Of a stretch of 54,461 bases of DNA, positions 5,802 to 48,340 are shown one piece after another (within the stretch, counting starts at the first letter, position 1; the number at the start of each line of letters is the position of its first letter). Source of the DNA: Parcubacteria group bacterium (GTDB lineage Bacteria > Patescibacteriota > Minisyncoccia > UBA6257 > JACRHW01); contig JACRHW010000004.1 in assembly GCA_016217555.1 (NCBI GenBank), positions 1-54,461 on the forward strand, read 5' to 3'. The notes under the pieces are model-generated. The model was not told where the DNA came from and ran no database searches. It was given only the letters and a program-made list of their open reading frames with translations. The position numbers were made by a program, and so were the translations under genes.

Positions 5802-6389
5802 CTACTTTTTTGTGGATTTAATAATGTCGTCTATAAGACCATATTTTTTAGCTTCTTCTGGAGAGAGGTAAAAATCTCGATCGGTATCTTTTTCAACTTT
5901 AGAAACAGGCTGCCCGGTATGTTTTGCGAGTATCTGATTAAGCTGTCCTTTCATTTTAATAATTTGGCGCGCGGTGATCTCTATCTCTGAAGCTTGTCCC
6001 TCAGCACCCCCCATTATTTGATGGAGCAAAATTTCTGCATTAGGAAGAGTGTAACGCTTCCCCTTCTTGCCTGCACCAAGTAAAACGGCACCCATAGAGG
6101 CAGCAATACCCACGCAAATAGTTGAAACATCTGGCTTAATCGCTTGCATAGTGTCATAGATAGCAAGACCTGCTGTTACCATTCCCCCAGGAGAATTGAT
6201 ATAAAAATGAATGTCTTTTTTAGGGTCGGTGTGCTCAAGATAAAGCATTTGTGCGACGATAGTATTTGCAACCATGTCGTTTATAGGGCCTCCAAGAAAA
6301 ATAATACGCTCCTCAAGAAGACGAGAATAAATGTCATAGGCGCGCTCTCCAAAGTTTGATTTTTCGATTACGGTAGGAATTAAATTCAT
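5802..6389 (-). CDS. clpP: ATP-dependent Clp protease proteolytic subunit
   Basis: [27 protein letters not shown] active-site region; YINSPGG. Confidence 0.96.
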
Positions 6390-6397
6390 AAGTTTAA

Positions 6398-6497
6398 CAT
6401 ACTAATATACGAATGTTACGAATAAAACGAATCACTACAAATACCGTACGTATTAGTATCCATTAGTATCATTTGCATAATTCGTATATTGGTATAA
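6398..6497 (-). repeat. family-A intergenic palindromic repeat, copy 1
   Basis: catactaatatacgaatgttacgaat...cataattcgtatattggtata; between tig stop and clpP start. Confidence 0.9.
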
Positions 6498-6505
6498 TTT
6501 ATTTT

Positions 6506-15876: not shown

Positions 15877-16144
15877 GAGAAAAAGAATAAAAAATTATTT
15901 GATACCCGAATTATAGCACCACCTATACCCTAAGCAAGTCTTGACCAACGAAGAAATTGTGAAGAAATTGTGAACAACTTTATTTTTTGAAATTATGTTG
16001 AAATTTACTCATTTATTGGTGAGTGAATATACAAAACAAAATTAAAATTACACCACACAAATTGTTTTTCTTCTTTTTTTCTTTGTCATTCCCGCGATTT
16101 ATGGTGAGCTTAGTCGAACCAAGGCGGGAATCCAGAATTCTTCT

Positions 16145-19873: not shown

Positions 19874-19920
19874 GTAATTAATAATAACATTTTAGAGCAA
19901 AGATGTTATTCACAGATAAA

Positions 19921-20692
19921 GGGGACAGCCACCATTGTTTTATATTTTATGTGGTATAATACATTATAATTTTAGAATTTCTTTGGTCTGCCTGGATTAC
20001 GCAAGGTCGATTCAAGGTGAAACTTTGTAATCATCTGGTGGACCCATTTTTCTTTCCCAAATGGCGCACCCTTCTGAAGAGAAGTGCGAATAAGAGAAAG
20101 ATCGCCTATCTTGTCCGGCGTATTTATCCAATTTTTGTAATCATAGGGAAGGAGCGTAGGTAGTGAATCAATGAGCCTCTCTTCTTTCTTTTCTCCATGT
20201 ACCCGCCTCCAAGCACTTCCCCATCGCCAGTCTTCGCATTGCCCCACAAGTTTTGCTCTAACAGGATTGCGTTCGACATATTTAATAAGCGTGAGCAGAT
20301 AGGTATCAGTATCAACGAGAAATGATTTATAGCGACCTTGATAGAGATGTCCGGAACCATTTGTTCGTGTTTTTGCATGCACTTTCCTTGTGTGTGCGTT
20401 TGAAACGCGGTGCATAAACATTCCAAGATCTCCATCGTTTTGTGGACGAAGTACTAAATGCCAGTGATTTGGCATTACAACATACGCAAAAATGCGCATA
20501 TCAACGACATCTTTCGTTTCAAGCAAAAGCTGTTCGAATAACGCATAGTCTTCGGGCTCATCGAATATTCCCAAGCGACCATTCGCACGATTAATGACGT
20601 GATAGATTTCTCCACCAACATCAATTCTAGCAGTTCGAGGCATACTATCTATATTACATCACGCAAAAGATTAAACAATGGTGGCTGTCCCC
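19921..20692 (-). mobile_element. REP-associated tyrosine transposase (RAYT) unit with terminal inverted repeats
   Basis: GGGGACAGCCACCATTGTTT (19921-19940) and AAACAATGGTGGCTGTCCCC (20673-20692). Confidence 0.85.
19972..20643 (-). CDS. REP-associated tyrosine transposase (Y1_Tnp, HUH family)
   Basis: MPRTARIDVGGEIYHVINRANGR..., VVMPNHWHLVLRPQ (HUH), YVERNPVRAKLV. Confidence 0.95.
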   Translation of the reverse strand: MPRTARIDVGGEIYHVINRANGRLGIFDEPEDYALFEQLLLETKDVVDMRIFAYVVMPNHWHLVLRPQNDGDLGMFMHRVSNAHTRKVHAKTRTNGSGHLYQGRYKSFLVDTDTYLLTLIKYVERNPVRAKLVGQCEDWRWGSAWRRVHGEKKEERLIDSLPTLLPYDYKNWINTPDKIGDLSLIRTSLQKGAPFGKEKWVHQMITKFHLESTLRNPGRPKKF

Positions 20693-20725
20693 GTTACCCC
20701 GTTACGACCCGTTACCCGTTATTGC

Positions 20726-23044: not shown

Positions 23045-24835
23045 TTATTGTGCTTCTTTTGCTTTTGCTAACATTTCTTCTGGTTTCGTGGTGGCAAGCT
23101 TGTTTTCTGTATAGGAGGCGATGACGTGGATGGCGGCGTGGCGGAGTCCTGCAAAGAGTATTCCCTCTCCTACGCCCGCCTCGAGAAGAATCATTTTTTC
23201 GGCTTCGGTGATGTTGAATGTCGTACCAATTACATCAATCGTGGCGGGAGATTGTTTGAGGAGGAGCTGGAGAGAGGAGTTTGTTACGATAGGCATACCA
23301 AAGGGTGAACGTAAAAAGTCGTTGATGTCCTGTGTAATGGTGGTGATACCGAGATAATATTTTCTTCCGCGTTTTGCCATGCCGAAGAGGAAGTTTGCCC
23401 CGTCAGCGTATTTCATAAGTACCCACGCCTCATCAACGATGAGAAGACGTTTTTTGAACTCTGCTCGAATGAGGCTCCACATGAAGTTGAGGATCATATA
23501 CATAGCAATAGGGCGAAGCTCTTCTTCGAGGTCGCGAATGTTGAAGACGGTAAGACGGTTGCGAATAGAGACGTTCGAGGGGCTGTTGAGGAAACCCGCA
23601 TACGTACCCCGTGTATATTTTTCGAGACGTTTTGCAATATCTGCTCCCCCCTCGATACTCTCAAGCACTGTTTGTAGGTCGCCGAGAAGGGGCGGAGTTT
23701 TTCCTGCAAAGTCGCTGGTCGGAGTGATTTCACGCGCGGCGTATGTTTCAAGAAGGGCTTGGTCGAGAAGTGCCTCCTCGGTTGGTGTGATTTCCCCGAG
23801 CATAATTTTGAGAAGTCCTGTGACGCTAAGGACGTGGGATTTGAGGACGTCGGATGGTGCTTCATCAGGCGGAATGGGAGGGAGATCAAAGGGGTTGACG
23901 CGGTGTTCTGATGAGAGTGAAATTTTAAAATATCCTCCTCCAACTGCCTCCGCAAGAGCCTGGTATTCGTTTTCTGGATCGATAATTAGCACGTCTACGC
24001 CCATCATGAGGCTTCGTAAAATTTCGAGTTTTGTAAAGTATGATTTTCCTGAACCTGATTTTGCAAAGACCACCATGTTGGCATTTTCAAGTGAGAAACG
24101 ATCAAAAATGATAAGCCCATTATTGTGCATGTTGATACCGTAGAGAATGCCTTTGTCTGAGGTAAGTTCTGCGGAGTCGAAAGGAAAGATGGTGGAGATG
24201 GGAAGGGTGTTCATGGGGTTGTAGACCTGTATCTTGTCTATGGCTAGAGGAAGGGTGGTTTGAAACCCCTCAAGGTGTTGGAAGAGAGTTGGTTTTATAT
24301 AGATCATTCTTCCCTCAAGCATTCCAGAGAGTTCGTTTTCATATTTTTCGAGTGATTTTACGTCGGGTGCATAGAGGGTCATATATACTCCAAAATGGAA
24401 GAGCCGTTCTTGTGCTTGCTGAAGCTGATCGCGGAGTTCCTCGATATTTTTATAGGATGATTCGAGGAGGGGGTCGCGTACCAATCCTTTTTCTTGTTGT
24501 TCCATGAGTTGGGACTCGATTTGTGCTACTTTTTTTCGAAGGTTTTTGAGCGCCATTGCGGTGTCGATGGGGTCAAGGTACATTGCGATATCGAACCCCT
24601 TATCGAGATTTACCACAGGAGAGAACCAACCACTCGAAAGAGTATTGGGATAGGAGAAGATAAAAAGAGTTTTTGTATAGAGGGAACCTATCTTGAGGTA
24701 ATCGTTTGATACCTCTATTCCTGGTGGGGCAAGGAGATCCTGAAGAGACTCGGCAGCAAAGGCATGCTGTGAAGGGAGCGCACCAAAAGACTCTGGCTCT
24801 TTTTCTTCTTTTTTTCCAAAAAATGGGAAATTCAT
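23045..24835 (-). CDS. virB4: VirB4/TraC-family T4SS ATPase
   Basis: Walker A FAKSGSGKSYFTKLEILRS; Walker B RLLIVDEAWVLM; GITTITQDINDFL. Confidence 0.95.
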   Translation of the reverse strand: MNFPFFGKKEEKEPESFGALPSQHAFAAESLQDLLAPPGIEVSNDYLKIGSLYTKTLFIFSYPNTLSSGWFSPVVNLDKGFDIAMYLDPIDTAMALKNLRKKVAQIESQLMEQQEKGLVRDPLLESSYKNIEELRDQLQQAQERLFHFGVYMTLYAPDVKSLEKYENELSGMLEGRMIYIKPTLFQHLEGFQTTLPLAIDKIQVYNPMNTLPISTIFPFDSAELTSDKGILYGINMHNNGLIIFDRFSLENANMVVFAKSGSGKSYFTKLEILRSLMMGVDVLIIDPENEYQALAEAVGGGYFKISLSSEHRVNPFDLPPIPPDEAPSDVLKSHVLSVTGLLKIMLGEITPTEEALLDQALLETYAAREITPTSDFAGKTPPLLGDLQTVLESIEGGADIAKRLEKYTRGTYAGFLNSPSNVSIRNRLTVFNIRDLEEELRPIAMYMILNFMWSLIRAEFKKRLLIVDEAWVLMKYADGANFLFGMAKRGRKYYLGITTITQDINDFLRSPFGMPIVTNSSLQLLLKQSPATIDVIGTTFNITEAEKMILLEAGVGEGILFAGLRHAAIHVIASYTENKLATTKPEEMLAKAKEAQ

Positions 24836-24840
24836 AAGGT

Positions 24841-24948
24841 TAATATACCAATATACAAATGTTACGAATTGTACGAATCACTACAAATACCGTACGTATT
24901 AGTATCCATTAGTATCATTCGCATAATTCGTATATTTGTATGTTAATC
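24841..24948 (-). repeat. family-A intergenic palindromic repeat, copy 4
   Basis: About 108 bp apparently identical to 25591-25698. Confidence 0.95.
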
Positions 24949-25585
24949 ATGTCAATGATAGTCGTTTTGCGATATCGATGTTGACCTTTTCTGTCTCTTG
25001 TGGATTGTAGAAGTTGTAGAAGAGCTCTACGAGTTCCTCGGTGCCTAGGCGTACTGCATTTACGCCGATGCGTTGTAGTCCCCCCATCACCACATCAGTC
25101 CTCTGGTCGAGCTGGTATTTTTTTGTCTCAAAATCTTCTGAAAGTTCTTCTTTTGATTTTGATTTACCAAAGAGTCCCCCCCCACCAGAAACAGAGATAA
25201 CATCATAAGGCACGGTGACATAAAATCGTTTCGACATAATAGTCGAAGTACTTACCAAATCTCGTATGAAGGCGATATATTCTTCGATTTGAGTATGAAG
25301 AAGGTCGTCTGTTTCTTTTTCTTTTTGCGCATTTACAAGATCAAGGTATTTCACAATATTTAACTTTCTAGAATGGATGACAATTTCTATAGGAAAATCG
25401 AGGGCATTTAAAAATTCTTGGAAGGCTCCTACAATTGCATTTTGTTCGGTCTCTGTTTTGAGGTACACGTTAACACCTTGCACCATCACAATAGCACGCA
25501 GACTTCCATTTTTAAGGATTACCGTTCCATCTCGGAAGGTATCTATTTCAACAAATTGTTGTGTAGGTGATGATTCTTTAGCCAT
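24947..25585 (-). CDS. TraC-like N-terminal-domain protein of T4SS
   Basis: FVEIDTFRDGTVILKNGSLRAIVMVQGVNVYLKTETEQNAIVGAFQEFLNALDFPIEIVIHSRKLN. Confidence 0.8.
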   Translation of the reverse strand: MAKESSPTQQFVEIDTFRDGTVILKNGSLRAIVMVQGVNVYLKTETEQNAIVGAFQEFLNALDFPIEIVIHSRKLNIVKYLDLVNAQKEKETDDLLHTQIEEYIAFIRDLVSTSTIMSKRFYVTVPYDVISVSGGGGLFGKSKSKEELSEDFETKKYQLDQRTDVVMGGLQRIGVNAVRLGTEELVELFYNFYNPQETEKVNIDIAKRLSLT

Positions 25586-25590
25586 AAATT

Positions 25591-25698
25591 TAATATACCA
25601 ATATACAAATGTTACGAATTGTACGAATCACTACAAATACCGTACGTATTAGTATCCATTAGTATCATTCGCATAATTCGTATATTTGTATGTTAATC
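25591..25698 (-). repeat. family-A intergenic palindromic repeat, copy 5
   Basis: Apparently identical to copy 4. Confidence 0.95.
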
Positions 25699-26218: not shown

Positions 26219-27637
26219 TTAATCTTTTAAGTTTAACATATTCCCACTTTGAACTATATCACCTGCCGTGTTTGTTGTAGCTCCTGAGGGCGAAGGTTTG
26301 GCAGGAGACGCAGGAAGTCCGACTTCCCCAAATTGACGTCGTACCGAAGGGTCGGTATGATACTCCTCTAAATCCATCACCCGGTGTTCTGTAGGAAGAG
26401 CGTTTTCATGTTCCACTGGTGTTTTATGGAAGGTGTCTCTAGGTAGAGGTTGAACCTCCTTTGGAAGTTCAACCTCTTTAAGTTGAACGTTTCCCTGGAT
26501 TCCCGCCTTAGTTCGACTAAGCTCACTACTAGTCGCGGGAATGAAAGGAGGAATTATATTCCCTGAGCTTGTCGAAGGGGCGTTTTGTGGTTGGTCGGAA
26601 GTCGAACTTCCGGACATTGGAGCGTCGGGAATGACAGGAGGCGTCGTCGGTGCAACTGGCTTGGGGGTTAGTGGTGTGGGCGTTGAGGGCTGGATACTAG
26701 AATTTGGTACTTGCGTCATCGTAGGTGGTTCAGGATGAACATACTTAAACATCACGTGTGGTGTTTGATCGACGGTCGTAGGAAGTCCGACTTCCCCAAG
26801 TTGAACGTTACTCTGGATTCCCGCCTGCGCAGGAATGACAGGGGGGGTGGTAGAAGTTTGACCTCCCAAGTATTGACGTTCGTTTGTTTGTTGGAAGTCG
26901 GACTTCTTTGTATTGATCGGTGGCACACTCTGCGTCTCATACTCCCCAACAGGTGCTTGCGGCGCGCGTCGTATGTCGTCTGTGCCTCGTTGGACTTCGA
27001 GAATTGAGGGGCGTGAGCCTAGCGGTCGTGCAACCTGAAGCGGTGGCGGCGCAATAGGGCGAAACGTTTTCTTGTCATCCTCGGGCTTGCCGCCCATAGC
27101 GAGCCTCGCCTCGACGGGAGGAGTCTTTTTTTCTTCTGTCATCCTGAGGCTTGTGCCGAAGGATCTCTCATCTACCGCTGGTGCTGGAGGCGGGAGATTC
27201 TTCGCCTGCGGACTCAGAATGACTGGCGTGGTCGTCGTTGGTGCGATGGGCTTAATTGTCGGAGCTGGGGTGGTAGCAGTTGGCATCTCTAACCATTCTT
27301 TTTTAGGTGGGTAGGTCAAAAGCACTTCAGTAATCGATTTTTTGTGAGGTATAAAAAGTTCGTGGTTTAGGTCTCCAGCAATTGCAGTGGCAACTATCAT
27401 ACTTACGCCAAGGTCTTTTACAAAAATGTCTTTAAGAATGTCTGGATGAATAAAACCCATAAACACCCAGGAGGTATTTTCCCGAAGTCTGTCGGCTTGT
27501 TTTTCGCTAAGCGAGTATTTTGTGATTATTTTATTTAATACTTCTTGAGTTTCGGCAGAAAAAATTGCCTTTCGAAGATCGTCAGGAATGAGATCAAGGC
27601 GTTCGCGAAATTGTTGTTGAGAAATATTGATTTGCAT
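26219..27637 (-). CDS. proline-rich, largely disordered protein in T4SS locus, studded with repeat-derived peptides
   Basis: Ordered N-terminus then Pro/Thr-rich region with recurring NVQLGEVGLP, PVIPAQAGIQ, PSTSSGN segments. Confidence 0.75.
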   Translation of the reverse strand: MQINISQQQFRERLDLIPDDLRKAIFSAETQEVLNKIITKYSLSEKQADRLRENTSWVFMGFIHPDILKDIFVKDLGVSMIVATAIAGDLNHELFIPHKKSITEVLLTYPPKKEWLEMPTATTPAPTIKPIAPTTTTPVILSPQAKNLPPPAPAVDERSFGTSLRMTEEKKTPPVEARLAMGGKPEDDKKTFRPIAPPPLQVARPLGSRPSILEVQRGTDDIRRAPQAPVGEYETQSVPPINTKKSDFQQTNERQYLGGQTSTTPPVIPAQAGIQSNVQLGEVGLPTTVDQTPHVMFKYVHPEPPTMTQVPNSSIQPSTPTPLTPKPVAPTTPPVIPDAPMSGSSTSDQPQNAPSTSSGNIIPPFIPATSSELSRTKAGIQGNVQLKEVELPKEVQPLPRDTFHKTPVEHENALPTEHRVMDLEEYHTDPSVRRQFGEVGLPASPAKPSPSGATTNTAGDIVQSGNMLNLKD

Positions 27638-30196: not shown

Positions 30197-33190
30197 TTAT
30201 CTAAAAATTCCATAAGAGGCTTGGCACCATAGTTGGTTGTTTTGTGGCGTACATGACTGATTTTGTTGTATGGTGCAAGAGAGTCTATTGAGCTGACCGC
30301 TTACACAGGGGCGATTTGTTTGATTATCGCAGTAGGTTATTCCATCGGGTAATCTGTTATTTACACACAGCGTGTTATCGCAGATTGATCTGTCGAGATG
30401 TCTGTTTTCAAAACAGGTGTCGGCGGGTTTTGTCGTGTAGTTAATAGCTATCGTTTGGTTATTTTGAAGGACGAGATTTTGGAATTCTGTCGATGAGGCG
30501 TTGTTTACAAACATAGTGATGTCGTGGAAGGGATCCACCTTGTAGCTAAGGACCTGAGTGTTATTGAGTGTTTCTGGCCATGCGGTAAACAAATCTCCAA
30601 GAGTGTATGCTTTTTGTGCGAGTGATTGGATGAAAATGTCGCCCGAGGCATCAACGGTGTGAAGAGGGTTAAAACACCCCTGTCCTGTTGCCCCGATATT
30701 TGCGGGAGGTTTTGTTGTCGCTTTTATCGCGCCGGTATTTTCTACGGCGTTAATTTCTAGGTGGGATTTGATACTTACTACTTGTGCGAGTAGTGCATTT
30801 ACAAAACGTGAGCGTTCGGGGATGCTTTGTTCTACCGCTTTAATCTCTGTATCGACACTGGTAAGGAACTGGCTTTCGAGTTGCATGGAGGGTTCGAGTT
30901 GTTGTGGTTTGCTTTGTGAATCTTTGGCGTTGTCTATCCACGCCTGTTCATCGTTGAGTGTCGCTTTGTTATCATCATTATCGACGATGCGTGTTGCAAT
31001 GTTGGGAAGGGCATCGCTTGCAATCTGTCGATTGTCAGAAGGACATCGTGCAATATCTTCATAAATTGTTTTTGCTTGCTGAAGCTTTTGATCAATGACC
31101 CTAAGTTGCTCATTCGCGATCTGTATACGATTTGGTAGGTCGAGATTATTTATCGCGTCTGAATTATATTCTTGTTGTATATCTTGTCCTGTGTTAAATA
31201 GACCGGCTGCTGTTTCGCAATCTGCCTGTGCTGATTTAGGGAGAACGCTACAATCAATTCCCTGTGCTGAGCCTCCTGTGTTGTCTCCAATTGTCATGCC
31301 AGCAAGTCCTCCTCCGCTACCTCCAGAATATCCTCCCCCACTACTGCCGCCACCATTTGAGCTTCCGCCAAACATCCCATCCAACGATCCATTCTGCGAG
31401 ACGAATTGTTCGATAAAATCTTTTGCTGGGTTGTTGCTATCAAGTGAATTACCATATTGTGAGAGTTGTCCAAGAGCATTTTTTTTCAAGATGTCGCCAA
31501 TGTTTGCTGTTTTTCCTCCTTTTTTACCCGTCAACTTGTTAATAATGGAGTTGTCGAGGAAGCTGTTCATCCACTCTTCGATGGTGTTGTTAAGCATCTG
31601 CTTAATATCGATCCCCATAAGTTCGTTCTCTACCTTGTCGTGTGTAGCACCACGAGTTTTTGGCTCCCACCCACACCCATAAGTGCTAAGACCAATACAA
31701 GCATCTTGTGTTTTTGCACCATTACAGACGTCCGCATCTGTCATAAATTCATCATTCGGATCAAGTTGGGTTGTGTTTTGTACAGTCTCTTGAACGTTCG
31801 CAGCACTTTCTATCGCCGTTGCGTGGGAGCCATCGGAGGCACCATCAGTGCTGCCTGTGCCTGTGTTTCCTATTATGGCGGTTTTGCTCAGAACGTATGG
31901 TTCCAAGAGTCGTGCATTTGAGGCGAATTGTTGTGAGGGGTTGTAAAGAAATGCAGCAGTGCCTCTGGCGCCGGTGGGTTTTGTTATTGAATTAGTGTCG
32001 ATGATATTAGGTGAGGTTTTTCCACTGGTGCTACCTGTAAAAGTACCACTTCCAGAGTCCCCAGGGGTAGAATTATTACCAGTAAACACGCAATCCCCAT
32101 CACCAACCATTCCATTTTCCGCAGCGTCTAATCTGGCTACTGCTTTTTCTGCATTTTCTCCGGCATCTGTCCCTGCTTTCCTTGCACGTAAAGGCCCAAG
32201 GGCTTCTATACTAGCAAGGATGTTATAGTTGTTCTTTAGGAGCTGTGCAAGTATCGCTACTGGTTCGTCAGGTTTTGTACTTGGTATGCCATACACTCGA
32301 ACAGATGGAAAATTTTTAACTCTCTGACGGGCTTGTTCGAGCCCCCGTTCTTCTTGTAAATATACTTGCTGATACGTGTTTTGATACGCGTTGAAGTAGG
32401 TGTTGGCGTAGCGGGTGCCCCAGTTGGTGATCCAGCGAGGGGCGCCGTTGTTTTGGAGCAGGCCAAGCATTTTGCTTTTGATCGTCTCCGTCAAAGCAAG
32501 CTTCAACCGTTCAGTAATCTTCTTCAAAATTCCATCAAATTGTATCAACTGCCTTTGTTTTTTGTCTTCCTCGGCAGCCTTCCTTGTATTAGTTGTTATT
32601 TCCTGCTGTTTTACGAGATCTTGCAGTGTGTGTATTTTGATTGAAATTTGATCTAGTGAAGCCGTCACCTTGGCGAGTAGCCCTTCTGCTTCAGCATTGG
32701 CTGCTTGATATTTAGCACAAGCGGGGTCCGTACCCCAGAAGTCACATATTGGTGACCACACTTGCGTTTCAGCCAAGGCAACGGTATACAAGCCAATATT
32801 GGTACTTACTTCTGCTAAGCTGACTGAAATCTCCTGGCAGCTTACTAAGATATCCTTTGTATCTTTTCCAAGCTCTTTTTTATTAAAAGCATCTCGAATC
32901 AGATCAAAAGGTGCATTAAAAATGGTTGTAAAGAGGTCCCCCTTTTTTTCTTTTACTGCAAAGCCGGCTGCTTGTAATGCGGCATCGCTAACGCCTTCCG
33001 CGGATACTATATTACGTAATGAGTCGGTTGAACAAATATCCAATCCCTTGGCTACGTCATTTACTTTTGCCGCATCTACGGGGATTTCTTTTAAAGCACC
33101 CAATATTCCGGCGAGGGCATTTGTTGTGCCTGGTTGGCTCACAAAAAGAACAAAAACGATAAGGACGGTGCACCCAATTTTTTTATACAT
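30197..33190 (-). CDS. large secreted T4SS-associated hypothetical protein
   Basis: Signal peptide MYKKIGCTVLIVFVLFVSQPGTTNALA; Cys-rich C-terminus; start trimmed from 33322. Confidence 0.75.
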   Translation of the reverse strand: MYKKIGCTVLIVFVLFVSQPGTTNALAGILGALKEIPVDAAKVNDVAKGLDICSTDSLRNIVSAEGVSDAALQAAGFAVKEKKGDLFTTIFNAPFDLIRDAFNKKELGKDTKDILVSCQEISVSLAEVSTNIGLYTVALAETQVWSPICDFWGTDPACAKYQAANAEAEGLLAKVTASLDQISIKIHTLQDLVKQQEITTNTRKAAEEDKKQRQLIQFDGILKKITERLKLALTETIKSKMLGLLQNNGAPRWITNWGTRYANTYFNAYQNTYQQVYLQEERGLEQARQRVKNFPSVRVYGIPSTKPDEPVAILAQLLKNNYNILASIEALGPLRARKAGTDAGENAEKAVARLDAAENGMVGDGDCVFTGNNSTPGDSGSGTFTGSTSGKTSPNIIDTNSITKPTGARGTAAFLYNPSQQFASNARLLEPYVLSKTAIIGNTGTGSTDGASDGSHATAIESAANVQETVQNTTQLDPNDEFMTDADVCNGAKTQDACIGLSTYGCGWEPKTRGATHDKVENELMGIDIKQMLNNTIEEWMNSFLDNSIINKLTGKKGGKTANIGDILKKNALGQLSQYGNSLDSNNPAKDFIEQFVSQNGSLDGMFGGSSNGGGSSGGGYSGGSGGGLAGMTIGDNTGGSAQGIDCSVLPKSAQADCETAAGLFNTGQDIQQEYNSDAINNLDLPNRIQIANEQLRVIDQKLQQAKTIYEDIARCPSDNRQIASDALPNIATRIVDNDDNKATLNDEQAWIDNAKDSQSKPQQLEPSMQLESQFLTSVDTEIKAVEQSIPERSRFVNALLAQVVSIKSHLEINAVENTGAIKATTKPPANIGATGQGCFNPLHTVDASGDIFIQSLAQKAYTLGDLFTAWPETLNNTQVLSYKVDPFHDITMFVNNASSTEFQNLVLQNNQTIAINYTTKPADTCFENRHLDRSICDNTLCVNNRLPDGITYCDNQTNRPCVSGQLNRLSCTIQQNQSCTPQNNQLWCQASYGIFR

Positions 33191-33194
33191 TAAT

Positions 33195-33215
33195 GGGGAC
33201 AGCCACCATTGTTTT
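33195..33215. repeat. solo copy of the RAYT terminal repeat GGGGACAGCCACCATTGTTTT
   Basis: 21 bp identical to 19921-19941. Confidence 0.95.
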
Positions 33216-33331
33216 GGAGATATTGATTCTGGATTCCCGCTTTCGCGGGAATGACAAATAGGGCGTCGGGAAGGACAAACAGTTTTGATTTTTGGGTTGC
33301 AGTTTTGCATTTGGGATTTCATAAGTTATAC

Positions 33332-34819: not shown

Positions 34820-34848
34820 CAACTATGGTAGTCGAACTACCATAGTTG
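34820..34848. repeat. perfect palindrome CAACTATGGTAGT-CGA-ACTACCATAGTTG overlapping ksgA stop
   Basis: 13-bp perfect stem; stop codon lies inside the left arm. Confidence 0.85.
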
Positions 34849-35695
34849 AGAGGAGGGCGTGCCATTGAGGGAGGGAGAGTTCCTGGGCGCGGGCGAAGGG
34901 GGTGATCCCCTCTTTTTTGAATGCTTGTTCTAGGATTGGTTTTTCGATAGCGAGGCCTTCGGAGAGATTGTTGATGAGGAGTTTGCGGGGATGAGAGAAA
35001 CCGGCCTTGATGAGGGTGAAGAAGTGTTGATTTTCTAGATTCCCGCCTTCGCGGGAATGACAGACTGGGGTGATTTTTATGGTGGCTGAGTCGATTTTTG
35101 GGGGCGGGTCGAAGTCGGATTTCGGGATGGTGAAGAGAAATTCGGGTGTGCCGAAATATTGGACGGAGACGGCCAGGAGATTCATATGAGGGGGTTTTGC
35201 AACGATACGTTCAGCAACTTCTTTTTGGATGGTGAAGACTATTTCTTGTGGGGGGTGTTCGAGCTCAAGCAATATTCGTATAAGAAAGCCAGTGAGGTAG
35301 TAGGGAATGTTGCCGACGACTTTGTAGTTTAGTAGCTTATTAGCGAGATTAAGTGATACTGGATTCCCGCCTTCGCGGGAGTGACAAATAGATGGAATAA
35401 CTTTTAGTGCATCGCCCGGTATAACTTCAATATTTTTATTATCTTTGTATTTTTCTTTGAGGGCTTCGGCGAGGCTTTCGTCTTTTTCAATTAAAATAAG
35501 TTTGGAAAAAGGTAGGCCTTCGACAGGCTCAGGCACTATTTGTCGTTTGTAGTTTAGGATTGCATCGGTGAGTTCTCCGTGTCCAGGACCAATTTCAATA
35601 ATCGTATCCCCTATTTGAGGATTAATGGCAGATGCGATACGTTCCAATATGTTTTTATTGGTGAGAAAGTGTTGACCTAAACGTTGTGTGTTCAT
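34823..35695 (-). CDS. rsmA: 16S rRNA (adenine1518/1519-N6)-dimethyltransferase with repeat-derived in-frame insertions
   Basis: RLGQHFLTNKNILERIASAI, IEIGPGHGELT, VVGNIPYYLTG; insertions VPEPVEGLP, CHSREGGNPVS, CHSREGGNLEN. Confidence 0.95.
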   Translation of the reverse strand: MNTQRLGQHFLTNKNILERIASAINPQIGDTIIEIGPGHGELTDAILNYKRQIVPEPVEGLPFSKLILIEKDESLAEALKEKYKDNKNIEVIPGDALKVIPSICHSREGGNPVSLNLANKLLNYKVVGNIPYYLTGFLIRILLELEHPPQEIVFTIQKEVAERIVAKPPHMNLLAVSVQYFGTPEFLFTIPKSDFDPPPKIDSATIKITPVCHSREGGNLENQHFFTLIKAGFSHPRKLLINNLSEGLAIEKPILEQAFKKEGITPFARAQELSLPQWHALLSTMVVRLP

Positions 35696-35762: not shown

Positions 35763-37736
35763 TTAGTTGTATTCTATAAAGTCTTCGTCGATATGGGTGT
35801 GGCTCGTGGTGGCGTTAGTGTATTCGATGAGATGTTCTGGTATTTCTGCAATAAAGCGGGAGGGTGGATTCATTTTAAGAGCACCAAATACCTTGCGTTG
35901 GCGCGCGAAGGAGAGATAGAGTGCCTTCTTGGCGCGTGTGAGGGCGACGTAAGCTAAACGACGCTCCTCTTCAAGCGCAATGTCCTCGGACAGGCTTCGT
36001 TCGTGAGGAAGTACTCCTTCTTCGAGGCCAACAACAAATACGATTTCAAACTCTAGGCCCTTTGCGGCATGGATGGTCATAAGTTTGATACCCCTTAGGG
36101 CATCTTTTTCCTGATCGGCATCTTGATAAAGATTTGCTGTTTCGAGGAAGGCGGAGAGATTGTCCATTCTGTCGCCTCCGCGCGCATCGTACTGTGAGGC
36201 GGCATTTATGAGTTCTTGCACATTTTCCCAGCGGCGTATCCCCTCCTCCGTTTTTGGATCGAGATACTCCCTAAATTTTATTTCCCGAATGAGATAGCTG
36301 ATGGTTTCGGTGAGCGTTGATTCGTTTGCTTTTGCACGAAGCATTTCGAGAAATTTGAGAAATTCAAGGAGGGCTGTCTTGTTACGGTACTTGCTGTGTA
36401 AGATGTTATTGGTCTGAGGTGAGTCGAGAGATTCTTCGACTGTTGTCTCAGAATGACGGAAAAGTTTTATTGCTTCTTTGCCAAGCCCACGGGCAGGGAC
36501 GTTGATGATGCGTTCAAGACTAAGAATATCTTTCGGATTGATAATAAGTTTGAGATAGGCAAGGATGTCTTTTACCTCTTTTCTGTCATAAAAACGTGTG
36601 CCACCAATTACTTGGTAAGCAAGACGTGCTTGTATACACATCTCTTCCAAGATGCGTGATTGAGCATTGGTGCGATAAAGAATAGCAATGCGATCGATAT
36701 GAGCGAGTTTGTTTTTAATAAGACCGAGAATAGTATCAATACAAATACGTGCTTCGTGTGAATCACTATCGGATTCTACAAGATAAATAGGAGGACCCGC
36801 TTCATTTTTGGTGAAGAGGTTTTTTTCTTTTCCTACGCTATTGTTTGCAATCACTGCGTTTGCGGCAGAGAGGATGTTTTGTGTAGAGCGATAATTTTCT
36901 TCGAGAAGGATGGTGGTTGCTTCAGGCCAATCCTTTTCGAAATCAAGGAAGATGGTAAAGTCTGCTCCTCGCCAGCTGTAAATGGATTGCGCATCATCCC
37001 CTACCGCACAGATGTTTCTGTGGTCTTGTGCGAGAAGCTTCATGAGGAGATATTGCGAGGGATTAATGTCTTGATATTCGTCGATCAAGATGTAGCGCCA
37101 TCGGGAGGCGTGCTTTTTCAAAATATCTTCGTTGTGTAAAAAGAGAAGCCCTGGTTTTAGAATAAGATCATCAAAATCGAAGGCGTTCATTGTTTCAAGT
37201 CGTTCTTCGTATTTGGTTTGGATGTTGCTTATCACCGATTCATAGAAGTTGTGTTCACTCCGTTCTTTTTCAGGATTATTTTTTCTTATTCCAATAGATG
37301 CGAGGATTTGTTGTGGGGGAAACTTTTCTTTATCAAGATTAAGTTCTTTGGTAATTGTTTTAATGATAGAGAGGGCGTCATTTTCGTCTGCAATAGTAAA
37401 ATAAGGCGTTCTTTTAAATTGTGTCGCCTCCTCGCGAAGGAGTTTTGCGCCAAGACTATGAAAGGTGCCTATAAACGAATTTCCAATTTCCAATTTCCAA
37501 TTTCCAATTAACGAATCTATGCGGTTGCGCATTTCGGCGGCGGCTTTATTGGTGAAGGTTACGGCAAGGATTTGAGAGGGTGGAACCCCTTGTGCAATAA
37601 GGTGGGCAACGCGGTGTGTGAGCGTTTTTGTTTTTCCCGATCCTGCGCCCGCAATAATAAGAAGAGGACCATCGGTTGTTTGTACCGCCCTACGCTGTGA
37701 TGGGTTAAGATTGTCTAGATGGTTGTTGAGGTTCAT
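35763..37736 (-). CDS. pcrA: UvrD/PcrA-like superfamily I DNA helicase
   Basis: LNPSQRRAVQTTDGPLLIIAGAGSGKTKTLTHRV, DDAQSIYSWRGAD, TIHAAKGLEF, VALTRAKK; start trimmed from 37775. Confidence 0.95.
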   Translation of the reverse strand: MNLNNHLDNLNPSQRRAVQTTDGPLLIIAGAGSGKTKTLTHRVAHLIAQGVPPSQILAVTFTNKAAAEMRNRIDSLIGNWKLEIGNSFIGTFHSLGAKLLREEATQFKRTPYFTIADENDALSIIKTITKELNLDKEKFPPQQILASIGIRKNNPEKERSEHNFYESVISNIQTKYEERLETMNAFDFDDLILKPGLLFLHNEDILKKHASRWRYILIDEYQDINPSQYLLMKLLAQDHRNICAVGDDAQSIYSWRGADFTIFLDFEKDWPEATTILLEENYRSTQNILSAANAVIANNSVGKEKNLFTKNEAGPPIYLVESDSDSHEARICIDTILGLIKNKLAHIDRIAILYRTNAQSRILEEMCIQARLAYQVIGGTRFYDRKEVKDILAYLKLIINPKDILSLERIINVPARGLGKEAIKLFRHSETTVEESLDSPQTNNILHSKYRNKTALLEFLKFLEMLRAKANESTLTETISYLIREIKFREYLDPKTEEGIRRWENVQELINAASQYDARGGDRMDNLSAFLETANLYQDADQEKDALRGIKLMTIHAAKGLEFEIVFVVGLEEGVLPHERSLSEDIALEEERRLAYVALTRAKKALYLSFARQRKVFGALKMNPPSRFIAEIPEHLIEYTNATTSHTHIDEDFIEYN

Positions 37737-37742
37737 ATATAG

Positions 37743-37860
37743 CATTAAGTCAAAAGTCAAAACGCAAAACTTCAACTAAAAACTTAAAAATGATTTTGAA
37801 TTTTGAAAGAGTTTTAAATTTTGCGTTGTAGTTTTGATTTTTGGTTTTTGAGTTTTGTTG
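37743..37860. repeat. family-Q AT-rich palindrome
   Basis: AAGTCAAAAGTCAAAACGCAAAACTTCAACTAAAAACTTAAAA.../...TTTTGCGTTGTAGTTTTGATTTTTGG. Confidence 0.85.
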
Positions 37861-39036: not shown

Positions 39037-39038
39037 TT

Positions 39039-39200
39039 TTGAATCACAAAACGTATATTTCTCACACGTGAAAATACCCAGCGGTATTTTCACTCTCTCC
39101 GCAAGCGCTTCGTTGTCAATCCAGCTCGTTTCGACTCGGGATTGACAACACCCTGCTCCGCGCTTGCGGAATGGTTCGAAATATGTATTTTGTGATTCAA
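39039..39200. repeat. family-H structured repeat, copy 1
   Basis: Closing stem TTGAATCACAAAA/TTTTGTGATTCAA; hairpin GTGAAAATACC-CAGC-GGTATTTTCAC; TTGTCAATCC/GGATTGACAA. Confidence 0.93.
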
Positions 39201-40020: not shown

Positions 40021-40143
40021 CACAACTCTAAGTAAGTCGGTGTTTATCTATAGTCCCTGAGCAACGTCGAAGGGTTTCCTTATGGTAGGCCTTCGACAGG
40101 CTCAGGCACTATCTTATTTTTCACTCAGGGTTGTGAGTTAATA
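40021..40143. repeat. family-L composite palindrome, copy 1
   Basis: CACAACTCTAAGTAAG...CCCTGAGCAACGTCGAAGGGTTTCCTTATGGTAGGCCTTCGACAGGCTCAGG...TTGTGAGTT; matches 45768-45890. Confidence 0.9.
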
Positions 40144-43152: not shown

Positions 43153-43164
43153 ACTATAAAAAAT

Positions 43165-43315
43165 TACGAAACGTATATTCCTCACACACAAGAATGCCCA
43201 GCGGCATTCTTGTTCTCTCCGCAGACGCTTCGTTGTCAACCCAATCCGCTCGAAGCGGAGGGTTGACAACACCCTGCTTCGCATCTGCGGAATGGTTCTG
43301 AATATACGTTTCGTA
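43165..43315. repeat. family-H structured repeat, copy 3
   Basis: TACGAAACGTATATTC/GAATATACGTTTCGTA; AATGCC-CAGC-GGCATT; TTGTCAACCC/GGGTTGACAA. Confidence 0.93.
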
Positions 43316-45186: not shown

Positions 45187-45353
45187 CTTTGAATTACGAA
45201 ATATTTCTTCCTCACACGTGAAAATACCCAGCGGTATTTTCACTTTCTCCGCAAGCGCTTCATTGTCAATCCAATTCGCCTAAGGCGAAGGATTGACAAC
45301 ACCCTGCTCCGCGCTTGCGGGATGGTTCGGAATATACATTTCGTAATTCAAAG
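45187..45353. repeat. family-H structured repeat, copy 4
   Basis: CTTTGAATTACGAAAT/ATTTCGTAATTCAAAG; same internal stems. Confidence 0.93.
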
Positions 45354-45767: not shown

Positions 45768-45890
45768 GCTCACAACTCTGAGTAAGCTAGTCTTTATCTA
45801 TAATCCCTGAGCGAAGTCGAAGGGTTTCCTTATGGTAGGCCTTCGACAAGCTCAGGCACTATCTTATTTTTCCACTCAGTCTTGTGAGCT
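45768..45890. repeat. family-L composite palindrome, copy 2
   Basis: AGCTCACAACTCTGAGTAAG...CAGTCTTGTGAGCT; matches 40021-40143. Confidence 0.9.
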
Positions 45891-45947: not shown

Positions 45948-46000
45948 CTGGATTCCCGCCTTAGTTCGACCAAGCTCACTACAAGTCGCGGGAATGACAC
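45948..46000. repeat. CTGGATTCCCGCC..GCGGGAATGAC repeat with GTTCGACCAAGCTCACTACAAGTC inserted in loop
   Basis: Same composite form at 26496-26546 and 16085-16132 (reverse). Confidence 0.85.
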
Positions 46001-48188: not shown

Positions 48189-48340
48189 TTTTGGTAATTG
48201 TTATTCCGACTCGTTCGGATACCCAGCGGTATCTTCACTCATCCGCAGACGTTTCGTTGTCAACCCAACTCATTCTGATTCGGGGTTGACAACACCCTGC
48301 TACGTGTTTGCGGAATGGTCGTCATAACAATTACCAAAAC
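48189..48340. repeat. family-H structured repeat, copy 5
   Basis: TTTTGGTAATTGTTAT/ATAACAATTACCAAAA; GGATACC-CAGC-GGTATCTTC; TTGTCAACCC..GGGTTGACAA. Confidence 0.92.

Follow-up and report, generated by a model that had tools for sequence, protein, structure and literature searches.

The question raised by rsmA/ksgA in an ultra-small, uncultured Parcubacteria group bacterium (contig JACRHW010000004.1) is how a conserved rRNA dimethyltransferase gene comes to encode short peptides that recur elsewhere in the same genome. The window, that is, the whole stretch of DNA that was analysed, is 54,461 nucleotides long. A previous sequence-only reading had claimed three in-frame repeat-derived peptides in one intact open reading frame (ORF) of this gene, and this was borne out: VPEPVEG, CHSREGGNP, and CHSREGGNL are all encoded in a complete ORF of 290 aa. 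These peptides are very probably the translated remains of dispersed palindromic repeats, of the type of REPs or of Rickettsia palindromic elements (RPEs), which inserted into rsmA, being mobile and filtered by selection, and which are most likely neutral. The features are listed in Table 1.

Table 1. Positions in the window of rsmA, of its repeat elements, and of the other features considered
Feature	Position	Strand	Description
RAYT-like transposase	19972..20643	-	PF01797; NF047646 75.2 bits, cut-off 80
Fourth element, palindrome CAACTATGGTAGTTCGACTACCATAGTTG	34820..34848	-	29 nt, 13-bp stem, z -8.9; codes C-terminal TMVVRLP + TAG stop of rsmA
rsmA/ksgA, 16S rRNA (A1518/A1519) dimethyltransferase	34823..35695	-	Intact, single copy; TIGR00755, PF00398, structure
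Site 3, element A copy	35036..35062	-	TGTC-ATTCCCGC-GAAG-GCGGGAAT-CTA, 27 nt = codons 212-220, CHSREGGNL
Site 2, element A (CGTC-1/RPE-6-type REP by layout)	35360..35386	-	TGTC-ACTCCCGC-GAAG-GCGGGAAT-CCA, 27 nt = codons 104-112, CHSREGGNP
Site 1, element B copy	35511..35539	-	Codons 53-62, IVPEPVEGLP; +11 aa net vs same-genus orthologue
Neighbouring PcrA/UvrD-type helicase	35763..37775	-	Repeat-derived peptides in two loops: NWKLEIGN; HSETTVEESLDS from repeat D18 at 36421-36457
Intergenic element B copy, identical to site-1 insert	40084..40112	+	Sequence match

Element A (GGATTCCCGCCTTCGCGGGAATGAC) was found in 20 places of the 818-kb genome, and element B (GGCCTTCGACAGGCTCAGGCA) also in 20 (both with at most 3 mismatches), while the reversed-pattern controls gave 0 for each, so that neither family is due to chance. 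The copies of both are mostly intergenic in the genome, with E = 5e-8 to 1e-11 for the matches between the inserts in rsmA and such copies. The 29-nt element B segment of site 1 recurs exactly in the intergenic copy and at 97% identity at 45834-45862; the identity with the intergenic copy had been reported before, with coordinates one position off (40085-40113 for 40084-40112). In addition to the three elements of the sequence-only reading, the C-terminus of rsmA is encoded by a 29-nt palindrome. Judged from these matches, the gene holds four repeat elements, belonging to at least three families, and its reading frame is kept.

The product was identified as RsmA/KsgA by TIGR00755 (189.5 bits against a cut-off of 171) and PF00398 (E = 4e-42), and its best bacterial PDB matches are KsgA. 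The genome comprises 817,659 bases in 24 contigs and is 99.99% complete; RsmA is present in single copy, and no paralogue was found across the 818 kb. Both the SAM motif (E34/G36/G38) and the NIPY motif (N129-P131-Y132) are invariant in comparison with relatives, and the dN/dS of about 0.16 between two genus members indicates purifying selection. Among named relatives, the nearest is a 'Parcubacteria group bacterium' MAG (L047, contig JACRHX010000015.1), and the same-genus orthologue (genome G001) is 72% identical over the aligned residues. An AlphaFold2 model, with the window protein and ten relatives as input, reaches a mean pLDDT of 87.7, and its best structural match is KsgA (TM 0.86); lower pLDDT values, of 48-70, are found mostly at the N-terminus and in the inserts (residues 51-60, 70; residues 101-120, 67 and 48; residues 211-220, 67). 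As the sequence-only reading had supposed in placing the inserts in loops, the model puts all three between secondary-structure elements, that is, in low-confidence loops of a confidently predicted KsgA fold. Following the usual Rossmann topology, inserts 1 and 2 presumably lie in helix-to-strand loops that face away from the SAM site, and insert 3 at the junction with the C-terminal domain. Since it is single copy, keeps its catalytic motifs, has a dN/dS of about 0.16, and has a confident predicted fold, rsmA is judged to be a working gene and no relic.

On the coding strand, element A reads TGTC-ATTCCCGC-GAAG-GCGGGAAT-CCA and is made of a 4-nt tag, an 8-nt stem arm, a 4-nt loop, another 8-nt arm, and a 3-nt tail, giving a unit of 27 nt or 9 codons. 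Both rsmA copies start with the TGTC tag, and the copies in the phylum with TGTC or CGTC; the tail is CCA at 35360-35362 and in most other copies, and CTA at 35036-35038. The copy at site 3 has an 8-bp stem and a 4-nt loop, and in the copy at site 2 a C.A mismatch at the second stem pair leaves 6 bp. The hairpins of the two copies are stable when single-stranded (-8.9 and -7.1 kcal/mol; z -4.2 and -2.9).

The CGTC-1 REPs, equated with Neisseria dRS3 and Rickettsia conorii RPE-6, have been described with a CGTC tag (often TGTC or CCTC), an 8-bp stem led by A/T pairs, a 4-nt loop, and a mostly-CCA unpaired tail (PMC3733652). By this published verbal layout, rather than by sequence alignment, element A is assigned to the CGTC-1 REPs (dRS3/RPE-6), which it resembles in tag, stem, loop, and tail, as well as in being mostly intergenic with some copies in frame in genes. 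The parallel with the Rickettsia RPEs that had been drawn from the sequence alone is thus closer than was claimed (PMC3733652). The host differs, with Patescibacteria being absent from the five phyla that PMC3733652 lists for CGTC repeats. According to the same source, CGTC-1 REPs are without a dedicated transposase and occur predominantly as head-to-head dimers; no transposase attached to element A was found in the genome studied here, in which single copies dominate and close inverted pairs occur at C3:191/236 and C15:2490/2535. The two CGTC classes reported inside R. conorii genes are CGTC-1 and CGTC-4 (RPE-4), the latter with a 9-bp stem and a 5-nt loop (PMC3733652). The same arithmetic gives 30 nt for the CGTC-4 unit, also a multiple of three, and a frame-neutral unit length (27, 30 nt) may help CGTC REPs to persist in genes.

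A long variant of element A was also observed (window 16085-16133 and 45950-45998; C21:98485-98533), in which about 28 nt with a second palindrome (GGTTCGACTAAGCTCACC), like the core of element B, take the place of the 4-nt loop, forming a REP nested in a REP. Additionally, two copies of element A, including one of the long nested kind, are found together with a B-type PSTSSG stretch in a 472-aa ORF at window 26219-27637 that has no Pfam match; this ORF is possibly a gene or pseudogene largely made of repeats.

The likeness of element B to a known class is looser. GTAG REPs have been described with a GTAG tag plus a 6-13-bp stem (PMC3733652, PMC2817692); by inspection, GTAG is present in about 12 of the 20 element B copies, often at one end, and the predicted stem is weak (4 bp, -3.2 kcal/mol). 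More convincing is the likeness of the fourth element, which flanks a RAYT-like gene and supplies rsmA with its TAG stop, as GTAG REPs often do for neighbouring genes (PMC3733652). It has few copies, and its GTAG lies within the stem and not in an unpaired tag, so its placement among the families of GTAG REPs is tentative. The RAYT-like gene concerned (C4:16130-16637; NF047646 42.1 bits, below the cut-off of 80) has the palindrome on both sides (at about C4:16140 and 16684). Another RAYT-like gene, in the window itself (Table 1), is flanked by inverted repeats (19917-19961 and 20652-20696) and is a candidate mobiliser of REP-type repeats. No sign was seen of either RAYT-like gene moving elements A or B. 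The inverted repeats around the gene in the window (19917-20696) contain GGTGGCTGTCCCC, and a copy of this type of repeat codes for PKQWWLSP near the N-terminus of a 1041-aa ORF (30197-33322), beside an element A copy.

The rsmA loops were compared with those of same-genus and more distant genomes, a comparison too coarse to delimit insertion ends or target duplications. Site 1 is a clean 33-nt gain with respect to the same-genus orthologue. At site 2, this relative has DTRYKILDT, whose DNA is matched 15 more times in the sampled part of its genome, and a genome of the same order (G003) has yet another repeat family (11 matches, E = 6e-7). At site 3, where element A is found in the window, the same-genus relative carries element B (VPEPVEG). 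Therefore, with different families occupying the same loops, rsmA is unlikely to be a target-specific hot spot of one element. The regions of sites 1 to 3 are 33, 45, and 31 residues long in the window and typically about 22, 35, and 29 in relatives. Compared with typical relatives, sites 1 and 2 have thus gained about 10-11 residues net, whereas the loop at site 3 (31 aa against a typical 25-32) brings no net gain in length; the equally long unrelated loops which the sequence-only reading had allowed for in homologues are found in part, and at site 3 only. Because this loop would be shorter than any relative's without its 11 residues, the element most likely replaced an older loop or was trimmed along with one. 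In the sampled stretches of two further genomes (G026 and G025), the matches that would point to RsmA loops of repeat origin were all weak or at the level of chance. The peptides IPTGRQG and CRRPPEGREVIISVPAGHLPKGD at site 1 of their RsmA (L073 in G025, L063 in G026) look repeat-derived.

The genome-wide pattern was obtained from 438 kb of the 818-kb genome and 371 kb of the about 700 kb of G001, as MAG stretches with simple ORF calls. Repeat DNA makes up 0.33% of coding against 8.4% of non-coding DNA in the former and 0.41% against 6.0% in the latter, being 15-25 times rarer in coding DNA, the pattern that the loss of most insertions into genes would leave. In conserved genes, repeat segments coincide with alignment insertions in 5 cases against 1.28 expected in the one genome and in 4 against 0.56 in the other (simulated p = 0.002 for each genome). 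Many N-terminal repeat matches, which are probably start-site artefacts of the simple ORF calling, were not taken as insertions. Frameshift junctions near repeats (2/3 and 2/6), mostly short matches, are too few for a precise in-frame bias.

Similar cases were found in other genes of the genome. The same-genus orthologue of the PcrA/UvrD-type helicase has other repeats in both of the loops that carry repeat-derived peptides here. GatB contains PSTSSG, which is another frame of element B and is absent in G001, and cysteine desulfurase has the related HPVRSREGSQRVFASNG and HPVRGRGALRALATSNG in both genomes, probably from one old insertion; these two proteins were named from conserved sequence and not by family search. 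As is characteristic of RPEs, the elements are in frame in conserved genes and differ in orthologues, with site 1 being absent, other repeats being present at sites 2 and 3, and GatB behaving likewise. Across the phylum, element A (at most 1 mismatch) was present in 69 and the exact element B core in 75 of the 287 Patescibacteria genomes sampled. Among the few loci examined, in-frame copies of element B occur in UvrB, SSB, and the ribosomal proteins S6 and L19, for the most part in linkers or tails. Copies of element A fall within ORFs for MPG, HolA, and CysS, and for MPG and CysS the alignments show clear gaps. Loci of other Patescibacteria with repeat-derived peptides in HolA, MPG, CysS, and UvrB genes include L237, L236, L252, and L217. 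For UvrB, the helicase, and the tRNA synthetase, there are parallels in the list of REP-tagged genes given in PMC3733652. The repeat inventory also includes a 116-nt AT-rich palindromic family, D1/D2 (ATTCGTATATTGGTAT...), with at least six copies (window 6387-6502, 24833-24948, 25583-25698, and others), some of them at ORF starts, and a second large family of intergenic repeats (GTGAAAATACCCAGCGGTATTTTCAC ... TTGACAACACCCTGC; window 39038-39175, 43158-43315, 45188-45345, and 48204-48319).

Most likely, then, the elements are mobile REPs filtered by selection. The repeats would move by transposition or copying, with RAYT-like enzymes as the candidate mobiliser for the GTAG-type elements, and would land more or less anywhere, after which selection would weed out the gene-breaking copies; those that survive would be intergenic, or else in frame, stop-free, and in length-tolerant loops. 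Element A would be especially survivable because its 27-nt unit provides nine codons (CHSREGGNP) that are open in that frame. The same permissive loops would afterwards be entered again or overwritten by different families, and sister species would therefore have unrelated repeats there. The repeat-derived peptides themselves would most likely be neutral passengers.

Another explanation is that the repeat-derived loops are functional and kept by positive or purifying selection, either tuning RsmA (for example, in 30S docking) or slowing translation as mRNA hairpins. With 3 of the about 43 element A and B copies, from two families, in one gene that makes up about 0.1% of the genome, and with the same loops filled by other repeats in relatives, rsmA does appear as a hot spot, and the stability of the element A hairpins given above would suit such a role. 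However, sister species share no conserved sequence at any site, and unrelated families take each other's place there, an argument against a sequence-specific role; the relative lacks site 1, and the reported effect of an RPE insert in the Rickettsia guanylate kinase ranged from neutral to slightly detrimental (Abergel 2006, as cited in PMC2229807). Functional loops are hence considered quite unlikely.

The motifs might also be DNA-uptake or other genome-wide signals read by the host machinery, given that they are short, occur in both orientations, and are frequently found in genes for repair, namely PcrA/UvrD in this genome and UvrB and MPG in relatives. Uptake sequences, too, occur in frame in repair genes, but the known ones have 1000-2000 copies, against only about 20 per family per genome here, where many unrelated families are found together and the motifs are palindromic and strongly depleted from coding DNA; on the grounds of copy number and coding depletion this idea was rejected as extremely improbable. 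That rsmA is decaying or mis-assembled, with the repeats marking a pseudogene or a chimeric contig, has in its favour that the assembly consists of 24 contigs and that repeats can cause misassembly. Against it stand the intact ORF, the full set of catalytic motifs, the TIGR00755 score above cut-off, the lack of a paralogue in the genome, and the purifying selection, along with repeat-filled loops found independently in a different assembly, that of G001; it is very improbable, and a decaying pseudogene accompanied by a paralogue, which the sequence-only reading had named as one way in which it might fail, was rejected on the same evidence. The neutral, selection-filtered REPs thus remain the preferred explanation.

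Ogata, in 2000 and 2002, reportedly described RPEs (RPE-1 and others) in frame in protein genes. Classical RPEs of the RPE-1 type are about 100-150 bp long and encode 30-50 aa. The elements described here are like the Rickettsia RPEs in being palindromes in frame in conserved protein genes, in loop tolerance, and in having several families per genome, but they are shorter than RPE-1 (20-35 nt, or 7-12 aa), a size, also put at 27-33 nt, that fits the small RPE-6 class; unlike classical RPEs, several elements of at least three families are together in one gene, rsmA. In-frame intragenic palindromes are known as RPEs in Rickettsia and as GTAG/CGTC REPs in many phyla (PMC3733652, PMC2229807), and the Wolbachia WPE and the Methanocaldococcus coding palindromes are also protein-coding palindromic repeats, with different sequences and hosts (cited in PMC2229807 and PMC3733652). 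In Xanthomonas recB, too, distinct REPs had been observed close to one and the same site (PMC3733652). Intragenic REPs of such kind were described between 2000 and 2013, and the phenomenon itself is known; the earlier suggestion that it is under-described stands for this lineage, as no report of intragenic REPs in Patescibacteria was found in a literature search, but not elsewhere, where it is well described. What is new is that such elements are seen in this phylum, that one gene holds four of them, and that unrelated repeats turn over in the same loops, making this an unusually clear case in a new host phylum of a kind of element that is not itself new.

A more far-reaching proposal, that Patescibacteria remodel conserved enzymes by recurrent, family-independent loop turnover of REP-like repeats, co-opted in some proteins (for example, to alter the activity of RsmA or of a DNA-repair enzyme), is regarded as unlikely. 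The observations extend the phenomenon of coding REPs and RPEs to the Patescibacteria (CPR), and the replacements in the same loops between sister species constitute a natural experiment on the tolerance of proteins to new peptides. The 27-nt unit of nine codons suggests a simple reason for which a class of REPs survives in genes. Furthermore, when met in CPR proteins, peptides like CHSREGGNP, VPEPVEG, and PSTSSG derive from repeats, and their masking is advised in phylogenies and annotation.
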